Positions 31,811 to 37,941 of a stretch of DNA of 64,000 nucleotides are shown in pieces. The position numbers were made by a program, and so were the translations under genes. Within the stretch, counting starts at the first letter, position 1, and each line of letters opens with the position of its first letter. The DNA comes from Microbacterium sp. zg-Y1090. GTDB lineage: Bacteria; Actinomycetota; Actinomycetes; Actinomycetales; Microbacteriaceae. The DNA lies in NCBI RefSeq assembly GCF_030246945.1, contig NZ_CP126742.1:1922001-1986000 (forward strand), written 5' to 3'. The notes under the pieces were generated by a model. It ran no database searches. It was given only the letters and a program-made list of their open reading frames with translations, and was not told the origin of the DNA.

Positions 31811-31864
31811 GGGTCTGGGTCCGGGTCCGGGTCCGGGTCCGGGTCCGGGTCCGGGTCTGGGTCG
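31811..31864. repeat. Hexanucleotide array GGGTC(C/T/G), nine units
   Basis: Nine consecutive 6-base units run as one GGGTCT, six GGGTCC, one GGGTCT and one GGGTCG. The array lies in the 250-base interval between the MFS gene and the DUF222/HNH gene. Rest of the interval: a DnaA-box-like TTGTCCACA (31904-31912) and a hairpin CTGACCGGGG...CCCCGGATCAG (31921-31944) just before the HNH gene. Confidence 0.9.
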
Positions 31865-33153
31865 CGTGAGCGCGCCTTCTCCCCATCCTCGACAGAGGAT
31901 GAGTTGTCCACAATTTGCCTCTGACCGGGGATTCCCCGGATCAGAATGTCGGAGGCCCCCGGGAGAATGGATGCATGATCCTCTCCCCCGCACCGACCGA
32001 CATCGCCGACGGCGACGTGTCCCTCGGCGCGGTGGTGGCACTGCTGCAGGACGCACGCCGCAAGGTCGCCGCCGCTCAGGCCGACGAGATCCGCCTGCTG
32101 GCGCGGGCGCACGCGATCGCCTCCGAGCAGACCGCCCGGGTCCCGTCCAGCGAAGGCCGCGAGCGCGAGATGCCGGCGCGGTCGATCGCCGCCGAGATCG
32201 CCGCAGCCCTGCGGCGACCCGACCGCGGCATGCAGAACCGCATGCACGACGCGGCGGGGCTCGTGTCGGGCTTCGCCGCGACCGTCGCGGCGCTGCACGC
32301 GGGCGCCATCGAGGTCGGGCATGTGCGGGCGATCCACGACGCCGGCGCCGGCATCACCGATCCCGAGTCGCGCGCCCGGTTCGAGCAGGCCGCGTTGGCC
32401 GTCGCCGAACGCGAGACGGTCGGGCGCGCCAAGCCGATCGTCGCCGTGCTCGCTGCGCGCATCCACCCCGTTCCGCTCGCCGAGCGCCACGTCCAGGCGG
32501 CAGCGCAGCGGCGGGTCTGGGTGCGCGACCTCGACGAGGGGATGGCCGAGCTGGTGGCACTGCTGCCGGCCGAGCTCGCGCACGGCATCCGTGACCGGCT
32601 CACGCAGCATGCCCGCGCACTGGTCGCGGCCACCCGGGAGCGCGCGGCGGACGTCGCCGTGGCTCGGGCGTGTCCGGATGACGAGAGCGGCGGCGCTTCC
32701 CTCGTCCCTGACACGATCGCGACCGACAGCCGCACGACCGACCAGATCCGCGCTGATGTGCTGACCGATCTGCTGCTGACCGCTCAGGCGACCTCTCCGG
32801 CGCAGACGGGAGCCCTCCCGCCCGGCGCCGCCATCCGCGCACGCGTGCAGGTCGTGATCCCCGCCGCGACGCTCTGCGGCGCCGGGGACGAGCCGGCCGA
32901 ACTCGTCGGTTTCGGTCCGATCAGTCCCGCCATCGCGCGGCGGATCGCCGCAGGAACCGAGATCTGGGACCGCGTTTTCGTCTCCCCCACGACGGGGATC
33001 GTCGAACAGGTCGACCGCTACCGGCCGACGCCGGCGCAGCGACGCCTCCTCGACAGTCGCGACGAGCACTGCCGATTCCCCGGGTGCCGCCGCGCAGCGC
33101 GCGACTGCGATCTCGACCACACCGTCGACGCGGCGCGCGGCGGCCCGACGGCG

Positions 33154-33165
33154 CTCGCGAACCTC
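33154..33165 (+). other. Left attachment site core (attL)
   Basis: CTCGCGAACCTC matches the right-end CTCGCAAACCTC with one mismatch; the last six bases AACCTC are identical. Host sequence lies to the left and element sequence (GCAAGTTTGG) to the right. Confidence 0.75.
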
Positions 33166-33197
33166 GCAAGTTTGGAAGCCGCCCGTAGACTTGCCGG

Positions 33198-33203
33198 TAG
33201 GTT
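33198..33203 (+). promoter_or_regulatory. Candidate -10 box of the ATPase gene (leaderless)
   Basis: TAGGTT-GTGCGC-ATG: the box ends 6 bases before the ATG at 33210. It lies 33 bases inside the element, so the cargo promoter travels with it. Confidence 0.5.
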
Positions 33204-33209
33204 GTGCGC

Positions 33210-34601
33210 ATGGCGCATGACAATGGCGAGACCCGGCCAGTAGCTCCCGTGACGCTGACATGGTCGGGCTTTCGCGGGTTTAGGGAACCAACCTCGTTCA
33301 CACTGCCGCGCCTCACGCTCCTCATCGGTCGCAACAACGTGGGGAAGTCCTCCGCATACGCGCCCCTGCTGATGATGAAGCAGACGTTAGACGCGACGAG
33401 TTCTGAAACAGCACTCCTATCCCGCGGGCCGCTCATCGATGCGGGGCCGTTCCGAGACTACGTGAGCGGACACGATGAAAGCCGCGAGGTGTGTCTCGAC
33501 GTTGCGTTCTCCGGCGCGCCCTCAGATGCAATCACGCAAGCCGAGACGGTGTTTCGCAGCGTCAACGGTCAGGCGCCGTTTCTTGCGCGTCAGCGGCTGC
33601 TTTCAGCAGACGGTCAGGTGTTGATGGGCCGCAGCCGACAGGCTCCCGGACAACCATTCGTCGTCAAGTCCCCATTGCTACCCAAGCAGGAGAGCACGGG
33701 GCGCCCTTTCCGAGAGTTGAGCGACTTCCGCAAGGAGATCCGAGCCGAACAGCCAGAGGGCTTTCTTTTCTCGGGATTCGCCGGCGTGCTGATTCCCCGC
33801 TCAATCCAATCGAAGAAGGATCGGTGGGCGAAGGTTCAAGGCTTCTATGAAGCAGGCTTCTCGCTGTACGAGCGCCAGTGGGGCTTTAAAGCACGCATGA
33901 CCCAGTTCCTGCGCGATCTCGCCTACATCGGGCCTCTGCGTTCCTTGGCGCAGCGCACCTACAGATTGGCAGCGGAGTCGCCCAGTGATGTCGGCAGCAC
34001 GGGTGAGCACACGCCAGAGATTCTGTTTCGCCTTCGCGACGAGGCCGCAGGGAACTCGGTAAATGAGTGGCTTGTGAAGCTCGGCTACGGCCGTCTCGCG
34101 TTCACAGAGTTGAGCGATGAGTACTTCCAAATGCAGATTGAGCCCGCTCCGGGTCTTCTCGTGAACATCGCAGACTCAGGTGTCGGGTTGTCCCAAGTCG
34201 TGCCGCTGTTGGCGCAAGCTGCTCTCTTGGATGAAGACGCGACACTGATCGCGCAACAACCCGAGATCCATTTGAACCCCGCCCAACAATCAGTGGTCAC
34301 TGACTTCCTCATCTCGCGAGCGAATGATGGTGTCCGAGTGGTCATCGAATCTCATAGCGAACACGTGCTTCTTCGTCTCCGGCGCAGGATTGCAGAGGGG
34401 ACGCTGAAGGCCGATGAGGTCGCGGTCTACTTCGTGGATAGTTCTGACGGCGCGACGACAATGCGACAAATCTCGCTAGGCGAACACGCGGAGCTAGACC
34501 GCGGTCAATGGCCCCAGGGCTTTTTCGAGGACCAGCTTGAGGATTCGTTTGCACTAGCGGTGGCACAAGCGACAGGCGGTGAGAAGATTGCTGCTGACTG
34601 A
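33210..34601 (+). CDS. AAA-family ATPase, DUF3696-like (OLD/ABC-type), putative defence component
   Basis: This 463-residue ABC/SMC-like ATPase has Walker A GRNNVGKSS at 40-48, a long insertion (about 60-235), AYIGPLR at 238-244, signature-like SGVGLSQV at 323-330, Walker B TLIAQQPEIHLNP with Glu352 and switch His382 in ESHSEH. The C-terminal QWPQGFFEDQLEDSFAL is typical of DUF3696. Such ATPases pair with nucleases as sensors in defence systems. The ATG at 33210 is chosen for its leaderless promoter; the frame opens at a GTG at 33204. A PIN gene follows with overlap. Defence role is inference. Confidence 0.85.
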   Translation: MAHDNGETRPVAPVTLTWSGFRGFREPTSFTLPRLTLLIGRNNVGKSSAYAPLLMMKQTLDATSSETALLSRGPLIDAGPFRDYVSGHDESREVCLDVAFSGAPSDAITQAETVFRSVNGQAPFLARQRLLSADGQVLMGRSRQAPGQPFVVKSPLLPKQESTGRPFRELSDFRKEIRAEQPEGFLFSGFAGVLIPRSIQSKKDRWAKVQGFYEAGFSLYERQWGFKARMTQFLRDLAYIGPLRSLAQRTYRLAAESPSDVGSTGEHTPEILFRLRDEAAGNSVNEWLVKLGYGRLAFTELSDEYFQMQIEPAPGLLVNIADSGVGLSQVVPLLAQAALLDEDATLIAQQPEIHLNPAQQSVVTDFLISRANDGVRVVIESHSEHVLLRLRRRIAEGTLKADEVAVYFVDSSDGATTMRQISLGEHAELDRGQWPQGFFEDQLEDSFALAVAQATGGEKIAAD

Positions 34602-35073
34602 ACTTTGCGAAGTGGATGTCGTTCTCGACACGAACGTTCTTAGTCACGCCGAGAACACGGGGGCCATACAACGAGCGAGCGCCGTCGCTGTCCTCGACTG
34701 GATGCGGAATAGCCAGGTGCGTTGGGTACTCGACGATCAGGGCAAGGCGGCGCCGGATCCGAAGACCAGTCTTCTTTTTCAGGAGTACCGGGCCACACTA
34801 AGCCCGCAAAGCGCCTCGCTGCGTCTGCTGATTGAGTTCCTTTCCTACCAGCGTGTCGTGTTTGCGCCGCGTCCGGGGCAAGCCATACGCGCTTCGATTC
34901 GACGGTTGATCCCAGGCAACGTCAATGACCGCGCGGTGCTCGGCGCAGCGCATGGCACAAGTGACCGGGTGTTGGTCTCCAACGACACCACGGACTTTTC
35001 CGATGCGGTGCGCGACGCGGTGTGGGGCGAACTAGAGGTCAACATCATCACGTCCGCCGAGGCCGCGGCGTAG
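34579..35073 (+). CDS. PIN-like nuclease, partner of the upstream ATPase
   Basis: This 164-residue protein has the PIN-fold acidic set. VVLDTNVL carries Asp17, Glu69 lies mid-protein, NDRAVLGAA carries Asp117 and VSNDTTDF carries Asp136 and Asp139. PIN proteins cut RNA or, less often, DNA. From the GTG at 34579 it overlaps the ATPase by 23 bases; a GTG at 34612 (directly before VVLDTN) would start 10 bases after the ATPase stop and is equally possible. Either arrangement implies co-translation. No antitoxin-type gene accompanies it, unlike VapBC pairs, so the ATPase is the probable controller. Confidence 0.75.
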   Translation: MRRLLLTELCEVDVVLDTNVLSHAENTGAIQRASAVAVLDWMRNSQVRWVLDDQGKAAPDPKTSLLFQEYRATLSPQSASLRLLIEFLSYQRVVFAPRPGQAIRASIRRLIPGNVNDRAVLGAAHGTSDRVLVSNDTTDFSDAVRDAVWGELEVNIITSAEAAA

Positions 35074-35391
35074 CCGCTGCTTGACTTGAATCTGCAACAT
35101 AACTCGCTGACGTAACCACGACCCGGTGGCAAAGGAATCGCGGAGCGATTCCGCGGCAGCCGCGCCGCGCAGCGGCGCTGGGCTGCAATGTCCGCCGGGT
35201 CTGGTTTACTGATGTCGAACTCGTGGACGGTACGATCCCAGGCCCTAGCGAGTGAGAGAACTGAGACTAGAGGGACCCTTGTCTGGGAGGGTTGCGCGGC
35301 ACTATCGGCCAGTGTCTGGACATAATCGCGCGGAACGTGACTGAGCTTTGTTTGGGCCGCCTTCTGTCCGCGCGCCCCGAAGGTTCCGTTT
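35074..35391. other. Non-coding region of the element; candidate replication origin
   Basis: These 318 bases between the PIN gene and rep hold no convincing gene. A perfect hairpin GGAATCGC-GGA-GCGATTCC (35134-35152) is followed by GC-rich symmetric sequence to about 35180, the kind of structure nicked by rolling-circle Rep proteins. A possible promoter TTGTCT-N18-TATCGG (35279-35308) and a CATAAT box (35321-35326) precede rep. The origin function is inferred from position only. Confidence 0.45.
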
Positions 35392-35407
35392 GTGTCGTCT
35401 CAGTCAC
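35337..35407. repeat. 9-base inverted repeat flanking the rep start
   Basis: GTGACTGAG (35337-35345) and its exact complement CTCAGTCAC (35399-35407) bracket the ribosome-binding site and GTG start of rep at 35392. Pairing in mRNA would sequester the start region, so the repeat may limit Rep synthesis. Confidence 0.5.
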
Positions 35408-36168
35408 TGTCCTCTCTTGTCCCCCTCGCTCGCCCCGATGCGGGGTGGTCGTTCACCCTCGTGCCCGCTGCCGGTGAGGGCGGTGGATCATTCCGCACGT
35501 CGCTGCGCCGCAAGCCGGATTACGTCGCGCGCGGCCAAGCTGCAGATCCCGCGCGCGCCGCGGCCGAAGCCGCTCGACGCGCTCGCACCCGTCTGCGCCG
35601 TTATTGCGCCGGGAATGGGCTGAACCGTCTCGGAACGCTCACCTACCGTGGCGAAGGTAACCATGATCCCGTCCTGGTTCGTCAGCATCTGGGCGTCTTC
35701 TTCCGGGATCTTCGAGCTCGAACGGGGGGCGCTGCCTTTCCGTATGCATGGGTGCCGGAGTGGCACAAGACCGCTCACGGCCTGCACGCTCACTTTGCGG
35801 TCGGGAAGTACATCAAGAAGTCGACGATCGCCGCGGCGTGGCCGCACGGATTCGTCGGGATCAAGCAGCTCGGCAATCTCCCGGTCGGGTCCACAGTTTT
35901 GTCTGAGGCGAGGGTCGCTGGCGGGTACTTGGCGAAGTACGTGGCGAAGTCGTTTTCGGATCCTGTCGCCCGCGATCTTGGGGCGCACCGGTATGACGTC
36001 GCGGAGGGGTTTCAGCCGGACCGGCTGCGGTTCAGCGGGCGGAGTCGGGAGGAAGTGCTCGCGCGGGCATCGGAGCATCTCGCGGCATCTCCTGCGGTGG
36101 TGTGGGACTCGGCGGAGGCGGAGGACTGGCAGGGGCCGCCCACGTTGTGGGCGCAGTGGGGCCGATGA
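35392..36168 (+). CDS. HUH endonuclease, rolling-circle replication initiator-like (Rep)
   Basis: This 258-residue Rep-like protein has the three HUH-family motifs in order. GTLTY is at 81-85, the metal-binding HAH is at 132-134 in TAHGLHAHFAVG, and GGYLAKYVAK at 177-186 carries the catalytic Tyr (Tyr179 or Tyr183). Such proteins nick one strand at an origin and start rolling-circle replication, and in small integrative elements may also serve mobilisation. The GTG at 35392 has GAAGG 8 bases upstream. The end overlaps the next small ORF as ATGA. It is intact and shorter than most plasmid Reps. Confidence 0.75.
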   Translation: MSSQSLSSLVPLARPDAGWSFTLVPAAGEGGGSFRTSLRRKPDYVARGQAADPARAAAEAARRARTRLRRYCAGNGLNRLGTLTYRGEGNHDPVLVRQHLGVFFRDLRARTGGAAFPYAWVPEWHKTAHGLHAHFAVGKYIKKSTIAAAWPHGFVGIKQLGNLPVGSTVLSEARVAGGYLAKYVAKSFSDPVARDLGAHRYDVAEGFQPDRLRFSGRSREEVLARASEHLAASPAVVWDSAEAEDWQGPPTLWAQWGR

Positions 36169-36404
36169 TGGGCGTGGACCATGAGGCGTTGGCGGCATGG
36201 GTCGCCGCATCCTGCGCCGCACAGGGGATTCCTGTCCACGTGTCCGATCCGGGCGTGCTCACCCGAATGCGGGCGCTGGTAGGGGTCGCTGCGCCGGTGC
36301 GCGGCGGGTCCGCCTTGGCGGAGCCGCGTGCCGGCGCTCGGCCTCTACAGCACCCACATCGGCTGGATGCGTCCCGGGTCGAACCGGTTGCTGGTGGCTG
36401 GTAG
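36165..36404 (+). CDS. Small element-encoded ORF downstream of rep
   Basis: This 79-residue ORF is coupled to rep by an ATGA overlap. Its first half (DHEALAAWVAASCAAQGIPV, then HVSDPGVLTRMRALVG) looks like a small folded, helical domain. The second half is Arg/Pro/His-rich and less convincing. Its last 60 bases run against the 3' end of the recombinase gene on the other strand, so the two genes overlap tail to tail. Function unknown; a replication or mobilisation accessory is possible from position. Confidence 0.5.
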   Translation: MMGVDHEALAAWVAASCAAQGIPVHVSDPGVLTRMRALVGVAAPVRGGSALAEPRAGARPLQHPHRLDASRVEPVAGGW

Positions 36405-37739
36405 CACGGTGGCGTAGTCAAGGACGGACCGGACGATCGCAGCTTGGCGCTCGAGCGTCATCTGCTCCCAACCTGCTTGAAGCGCCGCGCCGTTGCCGAC
36501 CAGGCGGTCCAGGTTGGTTGACGCGCTCAACCGGGACAGTTGCTGGTCGACGCCGGTCAGCTGCGCCTCGAGCGGGTCGCGTGCGGCCTTCCACTCGAAC
36601 GGCGAGATCTGCCCCTCGCTGAACATCTCCGCAAGCGCCCGCATGCGATCCTGCAGCTTCTCCCGCTGCGCGGCGAGATCAACGTACCGGTCATCCTGCG
36701 CGTGCTTCCCGGTCAAGACCGCTTCCATCTCTGGCGTATCCAGCCGGTAGAGGACGGCGGCTGCGATCCATTCCTCCGCGCGTGCCGCGTTGACCATGAT
36801 CCCGCCGCAGCCTCGATGGTCCGGCCCGGACGAACACACATACCGGCGCTCGTTCACCCTCGCCGCGGCGAACAACTTCCCCCCGCACTTCCCGCACCGC
36901 AGCAGCCCAGACAGCAGGTAGCGGCGCGGTGCGCGTCTGCCCGAGGACTGTTTCTGCTCCAGCGTGTTCAGCACCTGCTGACGTTGCTCGATGCTGATGA
37001 TCGGATCCCACACCGCCTTCCCTACGATCTCGCCACGATGCGCTCGGAGTCCAGCGATTCGGGGGGACAGCAGGATTCCGCGAATAGTCGTTGAGCGCCA
37101 CTCAACCCCGGTCGCTGTCGGCACGCCGCGCTCCCGCAGATCCTCCGCGATCGCACGCGCCGACTCGCCCGCGATGTACCGGCCCACAATCTCCCGAACA
37201 ATCGCGGCCTCGGCGGGATTGACCGTGACCTTGTCCTCCTCGTACCCATACGGGCGATTCGCGCCACCTCCTGGCAACCCGCGCTCGGCGTTCTGCTGCA
37301 TCTTCCGCCGCACCCGTTCCGACTTCCGCGCCGACTCCTTCGCCGCCACCGCCGCAGTAATCCGCGCCATGAACAACCCGTCATCGCTGCCCAGGTCCAC
37401 GTCAGTGGTCGCGGTCGCCACATGCCGCAGCCCCGCCCTCTGGGACACCGCCGTGAACTCCTCCAGCTCAATCGGGCGACGGGTCAGCCGATCCATGTTG
37501 TAGACGATGACCGCATCCCGCATGCCGTCCCGCACATCGGCAAGCATCCGCTCGTACTCCGGGCGACGCTTCCCCGAGTACGCCGACACATCGTTGTCGA
37601 CATACTCGTCAGCGACCGGCCAACCGCGCTCGGCGGCGAGTTTGCGGCAGTCCTCGAGCTGCCGCTGCACCCCCAACGCCTGCCCTGACGGGTCCGAGGA
37701 GATACGGGCATAGATCGCAGCGGCGCGGGGTTTGCTCAC
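36345..37739 (-). CDS. Large serine recombinase (integrase of the element)
   Basis: This 464-residue site-specific recombinase should insert and excise the element. The resolvase domain opens with YARISSDPSGQALGVQRQLEDC (nucleophile Ser14). DRLTRRPIELEEF and a helix ESARKSERVRRKMQ follow. The recombinase domain has NRPYGYEEDKVTVNPAEA and WRSTTIRGILLSPRIAGLRAH, then a zinc ribbon with RCGKCGGKLF and VCSSGPDHRGCGG, and a coiled coil near residues 340-400. The start is a GTG with TAATAT 6 bases upstream. No excisionase-like gene is present. Confidence 0.93.
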   Translation of the reverse strand: MSKPRAAAIYARISSDPSGQALGVQRQLEDCRKLAAERGWPVADEYVDNDVSAYSGKRRPEYERMLADVRDGMRDAVIVYNMDRLTRRPIELEEFTAVSQRAGLRHVATATTDVDLGSDDGLFMARITAAVAAKESARKSERVRRKMQQNAERGLPGGGANRPYGYEEDKVTVNPAEAAIVREIVGRYIAGESARAIAEDLRERGVPTATGVEWRSTTIRGILLSPRIAGLRAHRGEIVGKAVWDPIISIEQRQQVLNTLEQKQSSGRRAPRRYLLSGLLRCGKCGGKLFAAARVNERRYVCSSGPDHRGCGGIMVNAARAEEWIAAAVLYRLDTPEMEAVLTGKHAQDDRYVDLAAQREKLQDRMRALAEMFSEGQISPFEWKAARDPLEAQLTGVDQQLSRLSASTNLDRLVGNGAALQAGWEQMTLERQAAIVRSVLDYATVLPATSNRFDPGRIQPMWVL

Positions 37740-37745
37740 GCGGTC

Positions 37746-37774
37746 ATATTACGAACGCGCCGACAATCTCGCAA
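37746..37774 (-). promoter_or_regulatory. Recombinase promoter abutting the attachment core
   Basis: On the minus strand TTGCGA (37769-37774) and TAATAT (37746-37751) are 17 bases apart, and TAATAT ends 6 bases before the GTG at 37739. The -35 box lies inside the conserved CTCGCAAACCTC site, so recombinase bound to its own site would block its promoter. Confidence 0.6.
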
Positions 37775-37779
37775 ACCTC
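37768..37779 (+). other. Right attachment site core (attR)
   Basis: CTCGCAAACCTC is followed directly by the host codons TGC CCG CGA CAT. It differs from the left site at one base. The reconstructed element-junction site would read CTCGCAAACCTCGCAAG, a tandem of two CTCGCAA units. Confidence 0.75.
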
Positions 37780-37941
37780 TGCCCGCGACATCATCGCCTC
37801 AAGCACGCCACTGCGTGGAGCGTTCAGCAGCTGCCGCACGGCGTCCTGATCTGGACGAGCCCCACGGGACGGGTCTACCCCGATGTTCCACGACGGGCTG
37901 TGGAGTTCGACGCTCGCTCCGCGGATCCCCCGCCTTTCTGA
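37780..37941 (+). pseudogene. DUF222/HNH endonuclease gene, 3' part (53 codons)
   Basis: This is the displaced C-terminus of the gene that starts at 31975. It begins with CPRHHRLKHATAW, the second half of the HNH motif, and continues LIWTSPTGRVYPDVPRR to the stop at 37939-37941, the normal end of DUF222/HNH proteins. It has no start of its own; an in-frame stretch upstream to about 37732 is element DNA. The joined protein would be 450 residues. Confidence 0.88.

Follow-up and report, generated by a model that had tools for sequence, protein, structure and literature searches.

An ABC-type ATPase and a PIN nuclease in the cargo slot of a Microbacterium integrative element form a probable phage-defence pair

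We analyzed a stretch of 64,000 nucleotides (nt) from Microbacterium sp. zg-Y1090 (contig NZ_CP126742.1, positions 1,922,001 to 1,986,000 of the forward strand), hereafter the window, in which positions are counted from its first letter. It contains a 4.6-kb integrative element with a HUH replication protein (Rep) and a large serine recombinase, whose cargo is a pair of overlapping genes. Lengths of their products are in amino acids (aa):

33210..34601, + strand: DUF3696/AAA_15 ABC-type ATPase, 463 aa, assigned from Pfam and PADLOC matches, invariant motifs and a structure model
34579..35073, + strand: PIN-domain nuclease, 164 aa, overlapping the ATPase end; alternative start TTG at 34588

The ATPase frame, with its stop at 34601, is open from a GTG at 33204 and contains an ATG at 33210. 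Its product matched three Pfam families, all above cut-off (AAA_15, E = 3.2e-12; AAA_21, 1.7e-7; DUF3696, 1.2e-5), and, among PADLOC models, PDC-M55A (3e-60), NsnB (1.9e-48) and, in third place, HEC-03B (4.3e-46). When 33 sequences including that of the window were aligned, the Walker A residues G40/G45/K46, the signature residues G324/G326/S328/Q329, the Walker B-type QPE352 and the switch-type H382/H385 were invariant, which bears out the intact Walker A, signature, Walker B glutamate and switch histidine that a first-pass annotation of this DNA had read. The structure model (predicted local distance difference test, pLDDT, 88.0) predicts an SMC/Rad50/PtuA-like fold, closest to SMC and Rad50 heads.

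The PIN open reading frame (ORF), also intact, has 23 nt in common with that of the ATPase. Searches with its product gave no match at E up to 1 in Pfam, PADLOC and NCBIfam, nor at E up to 0.1 in PHROGs; 18 other protein clusters were homologous to it. In an alignment of the window PIN with those of 25 loci from the same clade (clade 1, defined below; L006 excluded), D17, D117 and D136 were present in 26/26 sequences and E69 in 25/26. The model (pLDDT 93.7) predicts a PIN/VapC-like fold, and its nearest structures were for the most part those of VapC-type proteins and of protein-only RNase P. No ORF of at least 60 aa that might encode an upstream antitoxin was found between ATPase and PIN or between the left element end (attL) and the ATPase, small downstream ORFs not being scanned. 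Both the overlap with a PIN-like nuclease carrying a complete acidic set and, within that scan, the lack of a VapB-type antitoxin had been proposed in the first-pass annotation, and both hold.

To assess how tightly the two genes are coupled, we scanned named genomes from the ATPase outward, covering the best 80 of 423 loci. A PIN gene lay directly 3' of the ATPase in 79 of these 80. At 26 loci (clade 1), profile A1, built from a protein search, found the PIN immediately after the ATPase; at 53 of the remaining 54, a second PIN type followed it (clade 2); and the 80th locus, L058, is cut short by the end of its contig. The clade-2 PINs were first chosen because the ORF following the ATPase carried a motif, and were then recovered by leave-one-out profiles (53/53 at E < 1e-5), although the L039 PIN is cut by a contig end and that of L047 is frameshifted. 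An adjacent PIN at 79 of 80 ATPase loci excludes chance pairing, and the pair thus recurs beyond the window's element, where the first-pass annotation would have taken its absence as refuting. The converse search, starting from the PIN, gave few positives (2/58 genomes of relatives, 3/394 of the class and 1/396 of the phylum); these came from three different genomes, with the ATPase adjacent in each. The two proteins have also diverged together: ATPase and PIN distances correlated with r = 0.835 over 27 pairs, 0.816 over 51 and 0.913 over 78 (two short clade-2 PINs dropped), and 0/999 permutations reached values as high. A 624-aa protein, P0096, was considered as a natural ATPase–PIN fusion and rejected; by our reading its ATPase end is frameshifted, so it gives no evidence of fusion.

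In the ATPase tree (80 rows, midpoint root), one fully supported branch separates 27 rows from 53. The group of 27, which includes the window, spans Actinomycetota, Chloroflexota, Armatimonadota, Acidobacteriota, Pseudomonadota and Bacteroidota, label counts leaving out 36 rows. On plasmids, ATPase matches occurred in 28 records, 11 of them covering at least 80% of the query at 25–29% identity, and the window PIN had 0 plasmid matches. Three plasmid regions were opened: two, from Aeromonas and Azotobacter, carry a clade-2 pair followed by a gene annotated as RNA ligase, and the third, from Leclercia (L132:6998-8811), carries an ATPase related to that of the window with an integrase upstream; its 197-aa partner has no convincing PIN match and looks Toprim-like by eye. 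A phage origin was unsupported: phage records gave 13 partial ATPase matches at <60% identity, 0 of which covered 80% of the query, and viral_contigs yielded neither a confirmed PIN relative nor a pattern match to the window Rep. At L055, L066 and L070, clade-2 pairs adjoin DUF1156 and HEPN_Swt1/DUF499 genes, perhaps as parts of a larger defence cluster.

A ligase profile placed an RNA ligase just 3' of the PIN in 17/53 clade-2 loci, and Pfam RNA_ligase matched both examples tested, one per subtype; L039 and L084 leave no room for a third gene. Loci with a ligase after a clade-2 PIN include L029, L033, L034, L040-L044, L046, L051, L053 and L061; further ones are L068, L072, L077, L081, L083, L130 and L131. 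On the ATPase tree as drawn, the two ligase subtypes occupy distinct regions, so the PIN–ligase pairing had either two origins or a single one followed by losses. The presence of a ligase next to the PIN suggests that the PIN may cut RNA, and RNA of a kind worth recovering for the cell, a suggestion that extends to clade 1 by homology alone.

Such a pair is already present in a defence library. The PADLOC candidate HEC-03 joins a PIN (HEC-03A) to a DUF3696 ATPase (HEC-03B), in the same gene order as the window pair and with a homologous ATPase, and clade 2 fits it: all six clade-2 PINs tested matched HEC-03A (1.2e-20 to 2.4e-63), and HEC-03B matched the single clade-2 ATPase that was scanned (7e-131). 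In contrast, the window PIN did not match HEC-03A (E up to 1), nor did three other clade-1 PINs (E up to 10), and no PADLOC model matched any of these four. Clade-1 and clade-2 PIN families are nevertheless related (profile–profile probability 97.6, E = 3.9e-12). The clade-1 ATPases, that of the window included, form a fully supported group apart from clade 2, and no RNA ligase accompanies the 26 clade-1 pairs. Judged from these comparisons, the window's version is an unlisted sister of HEC-03. The first-pass annotation had thought a DUF3696–PIN pair undescribed; this does not survive the HEC-03 listing as regards the pairing, although the HEC-03A model misses the window PIN. The name HEC-03 presumably refers to embedding in Hma-type loci. 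The pair studied here is housed in an integrative element, and 13 defence and mobility queries (Hma genes not among them) matched nothing in its flanks. Another PADLOC candidate, PDC-M55, comes nearest by ATPase, PDC-M55A being the best PADLOC match of the window protein; the model scores eight clade-1 ATPases (188–229 bits) and one clade-2 ATPase (188) alike, and the window PIN, again, matches no PADLOC model. PMC13356809 uses HEC-03 as a defence label, and passages of PMC8565338 name Hma, not HEC. The literature searched contained no paper joining DUF3696, PIN domain and defense, did not name PDC-M55, and named DUF3696 only in an unrelated context; COG4938 occurred in two papers, and HEC-03, besides PMC13356809, in one that looks unrelated.

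We then turned to the element carrying the pair, whose other features are as follows:

33163..33169, + strand: attL core CTCGCAA, left element end within a DUF222-HNH gene; longest string common to both ends
37768..37774, + strand: attR core CTCGCAA, right element end, a string match to attL
31915..33162, + strand: left part of the interrupted DUF222-HNH gene (DUF222, 3.1e-24)
37775..37941, + strand: right remnant of that gene, with NLCPRHHRLKH
35078..35106, + strand: non-coding backbone motif TGCTTGACTTGAATCTGCAACATAACTCG, conserved between elements; right border of the cargo slot
35392..36168, + strand: HUH-type replication protein, ORF2/G2P family (PF23343, 2.6e-15; phrog_3419, rolling-circle replication, 2.9e-15)
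36345..37739, - strand: large serine recombinase (Resolvase, Recombinase and Zn_ribbon_recom; phrog_95, integrase, 1.5e-109)

The CTCGCAA copies at 33163 and 37768 are 4,605 bp apart. Twelve DUF222-HNH homologue loci from the genus were compared, the twelfth being that of the window; in the 11 uninterrupted ones the left and right peptides meet, with a two-residue overlap, showing that the element splits this gene. The cargo slot runs from just inside attL (33163) to the backbone motif (35078) and is filled by ATPase and PIN, which are therefore, as the first-pass annotation had it, the only cargo of a small mobile element. The 21-nt core of the motif is single-copy in its own genome (≤2 mismatches), and a replication origin, terminator or recombination site could be imagined there. 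Just 5' of the DUF222-HNH gene (~31812-31864) lies a short hexamer repeat of GGTCCG/GGTCTG units, which would encode GP, DP or TR dipeptides depending on frame.

Rep was found in 3/149 genomes of the genus, 12/398 of the family and 15/396 of the order, in overlapping samples that include the window's own genome, and the weakest order-level matches are fragments. With 24 further Rep loci, some decayed, the window makes a set of 25 slots. Among the first 15 elements, the 29-nt motif (≤5 substitutions) occurred in 14, including the window (L127 being without it), and recombinase sequence in 13 (absent from L090, which ends in Rep, and from L129). Ten elements from other families of the order had a shorter motif in 10/10, with 4 substitutions allowed and thus a looser search than for the 29-nt motif, and recombinase sequence in 8/10. 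A left-hand DUF222-HNH match (tblastn) was seen in 7 of the first 15 (window, L089, L090, L119, L123, L125 and L128), and truncated HNH frames were recognized by eye in L118, L120 and L122. The DNA between attL and motif, on the other hand, is unlike between most elements. We regard 33163-37774, L089, L090, L118-L129 and L148-L157 as one element family with a single interchangeable cargo slot, several of whose members are inserted in DUF222-HNH genes.

We next asked what relatives carry in this slot, scanning 12 of the 25, including that of the window, with Pfam and PADLOC. Defence or nuclease families occurred in 7 of the 12 (window, L090, L122-L125 and L128), a figure that counts occurrences and does not test for enrichment. 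The slot of L090 matched ThsB_TIR (9.5e-19), SLATT_3 (1.2e-43) and TIR_2 (1.1e-10); L122 a PADLOC effector TIR model (1.2e-7) with no Pfam match; L123 PIN_8 (1.1e-65) with no PADLOC match; L124 AAA_21 (1.3e-19) and DUF3696 (1.5e-4); L125 AIPR (1.3e-31) and AbiU (2.6e-27); and L128 TIR_2 (8.3e-9). In L129 the cargo gene lies on the opposite strand. HEPN-, SLOG-, DUF4062- or LPO_1073-like cargo was read by eye in slots without hits or not scanned and is left uncounted. The L124 gene (L124:7009-8945) is an AAA_15/DUF3696 ATPase whose best PADLOC model is NsnB (1.7e-50); its 176-aa downstream partner has no library match and is PIN-like by eye only.

Since the pair occupies a cargo slot whose relatives often carry antivirus-type genes, we consider it probably a phage-defence system, PARIS- or Septu-like, in which the ATPase holds a PIN RNase in check until a phage cue arrives; we put this at roughly 60%. 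The SMC/PtuA-like ABC ATPase would bind and restrain the PIN endoribonuclease, the two forming one functional unit. The ATPase would change state on sensing some cue derived from the phage, possibly one of its proteins or an aberrant nucleic acid, and the PIN would be freed or activated. It would then cut RNA, most likely tRNA, so that translation would stop ahead of phage progeny.

Several observations weigh against this interpretation. The ligase profile found an RNA ligase beside 0/26 clade-1 pairs, so the argument for RNA comes from the sister clade, and a PIN domain may equally have DNA or rRNA as its substrate. Profile A1 contains P0011, the PIN from L007's contig, so the 26 clade-1 loci are not all independent of it. 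At these 26 loci the 13 queries, a crude set, matched one tyrosine integrase and no defence gene, and clade 1 beyond the window's element is thus not shown in defence islands; of the co-occurrence in such islands that the first-pass annotation had looked to, the pairing is established (79/80) and the defence neighbours at clade-1 loci are not. The same queries matched at 11/54 clade-2 loci, a circular result since they were drawn from clade-2, plasmid and element loci. In the scanned slots, two of the 12 (L120 and L129) held only generic AAA/nSTAND-type ATPases, and three (L089, L118 and L121) no Pfam or PADLOC family above cut-off; with 12 of 25 scanned and no random-gene control, the slot figures remain a count. 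Finally, equating clade 2 with HEC-03 is an extension from six PINs and one ATPase, and a 2024 preprint by Payne et al. on defences embedded in immune systems may describe or have tested HEC-03, which we therefore do not claim to be untested.

Some of the evidence would also suit other roles. A VapC-fold nuclease on a small mobile element, with the gene overlap and co-divergence seen in toxin–antitoxin pairs, might be an addiction module, in which the PIN would be a toxin with the ATPase as its antitoxin-like partner, and the pair would do no more than retain the element in the cell, with no antiviral action. We judge this unlikely, since a conserved 463-aa ATPase with all catalytic motifs is unlike small VapC antitoxins, 6 of the 11 other scanned slots contain TIR, SLATT, AIPR, PIN_8 or similar genes, and an element that integrates has less need of addiction. 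Defence aimed at DNA, with the ATPase loading on foreign DNA and the PIN cutting that of phages or plasmids as a structure-specific DNase, is improbable: although the predicted ATPase fold is closest to DNA-binding SMC and Rad50 heads, the PIN's nearest structures belong for the most part to VapC-type proteins and protein-only RNase P, and RNA ligase genes follow 17/53 clade-2 pairs. A housekeeping role, in which the pair would govern how its own element replicates or excises or would keep related elements out, seems very improbable despite its position next to Rep and recombinase. The searches that yielded 26 clade-1 and 53 clade-2 pairs made no use of Rep; at the Brachybacterium locus L091 the pair is present with neither a Rep nor a recombinase match; and other cargo takes the pair's place in the same backbone.

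If the pair is indeed a phage-defence system, a PIN ribonuclease joins the effectors gated by AAA_15-type ABC ATPases, next to the Toprim of PARIS and the HNH of Septu and retrons, and a function is suggested for DUF3696. The RNA ligase link offers a direct, testable hypothesis on substrate and reversal, and the element family a simple route to more systems: reading the cargo slot. More tentatively, and with some doubt, we envisage DUF3696 ATPase–PIN pairs as a large, phylum-spanning, PIN-effector immune class parallel to PARIS. One branch might have gained an RNA ligase for self-contained cut-and-reseal tRNA immunity, and the Micrococcales clade-1 version might ride single-slot integrative elements that are dedicated defence-gene exchange cassettes homing to DUF222-HNH genes.

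Among other characterized systems, Menshen, which has three genes in all, resembles the pair in its NsnB, the second-ranked PADLOC match of the window ATPase; NsnA and NsnC were not found beside it, the other three element proteins matching no PADLOC model (E up to 1). Menshen is described as including a nuclease of OLD type and a DUF262 gene (PMC10952713), neither of which was matched in the element by Pfam or PADLOC. VapBC has a PIN nuclease of VapC fold with four conserved acidic residues, as does the window, where the upstream partner is an ATPase and not VapB. PIN effectors are needed for phage defence in DS-3 and DS-5, whose remaining parts differ (PMC13092281). In RloC and PrrC, an ABC ATPase of SbcC/Rad50-like type is coupled to a tRNase and regulates it, as we propose here (PMC3710099); their RNase is a fused HEPN domain, while the window PIN is a separate gene. 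The first-pass annotation had likened the pair to Gabija, Septu and PARIS, of which we judge Gabija less close; Septu and PARIS each combine a separate small nuclease with an ABC ATPase and have tRNA as target. Septu cuts a tRNA (PMC13096335), and in Septu and retron PtuA/PtuB, PtuB is an HNH nuclease, of which the window pair has none. AriA models of PARIS matched the window ATPase at 1.1e-15 and 1.4e-8, the level expected from generic ATPase similarity, and no AriB-type DUF4435/Toprim effector was seen, the window effector having a predicted PIN fold and no Pfam match (E up to 1). In PARIS the ABC ATPase sequesters the nuclease until binding of a phage protein frees it to cut tRNA (PMC12409363). 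PARIS and the window pair differ in effector, Toprim in one and PIN in the other, and are alike in placing an AAA_15-type ABC ATPase and a small nuclease in one operon, for which we propose the same trap-and-release logic.
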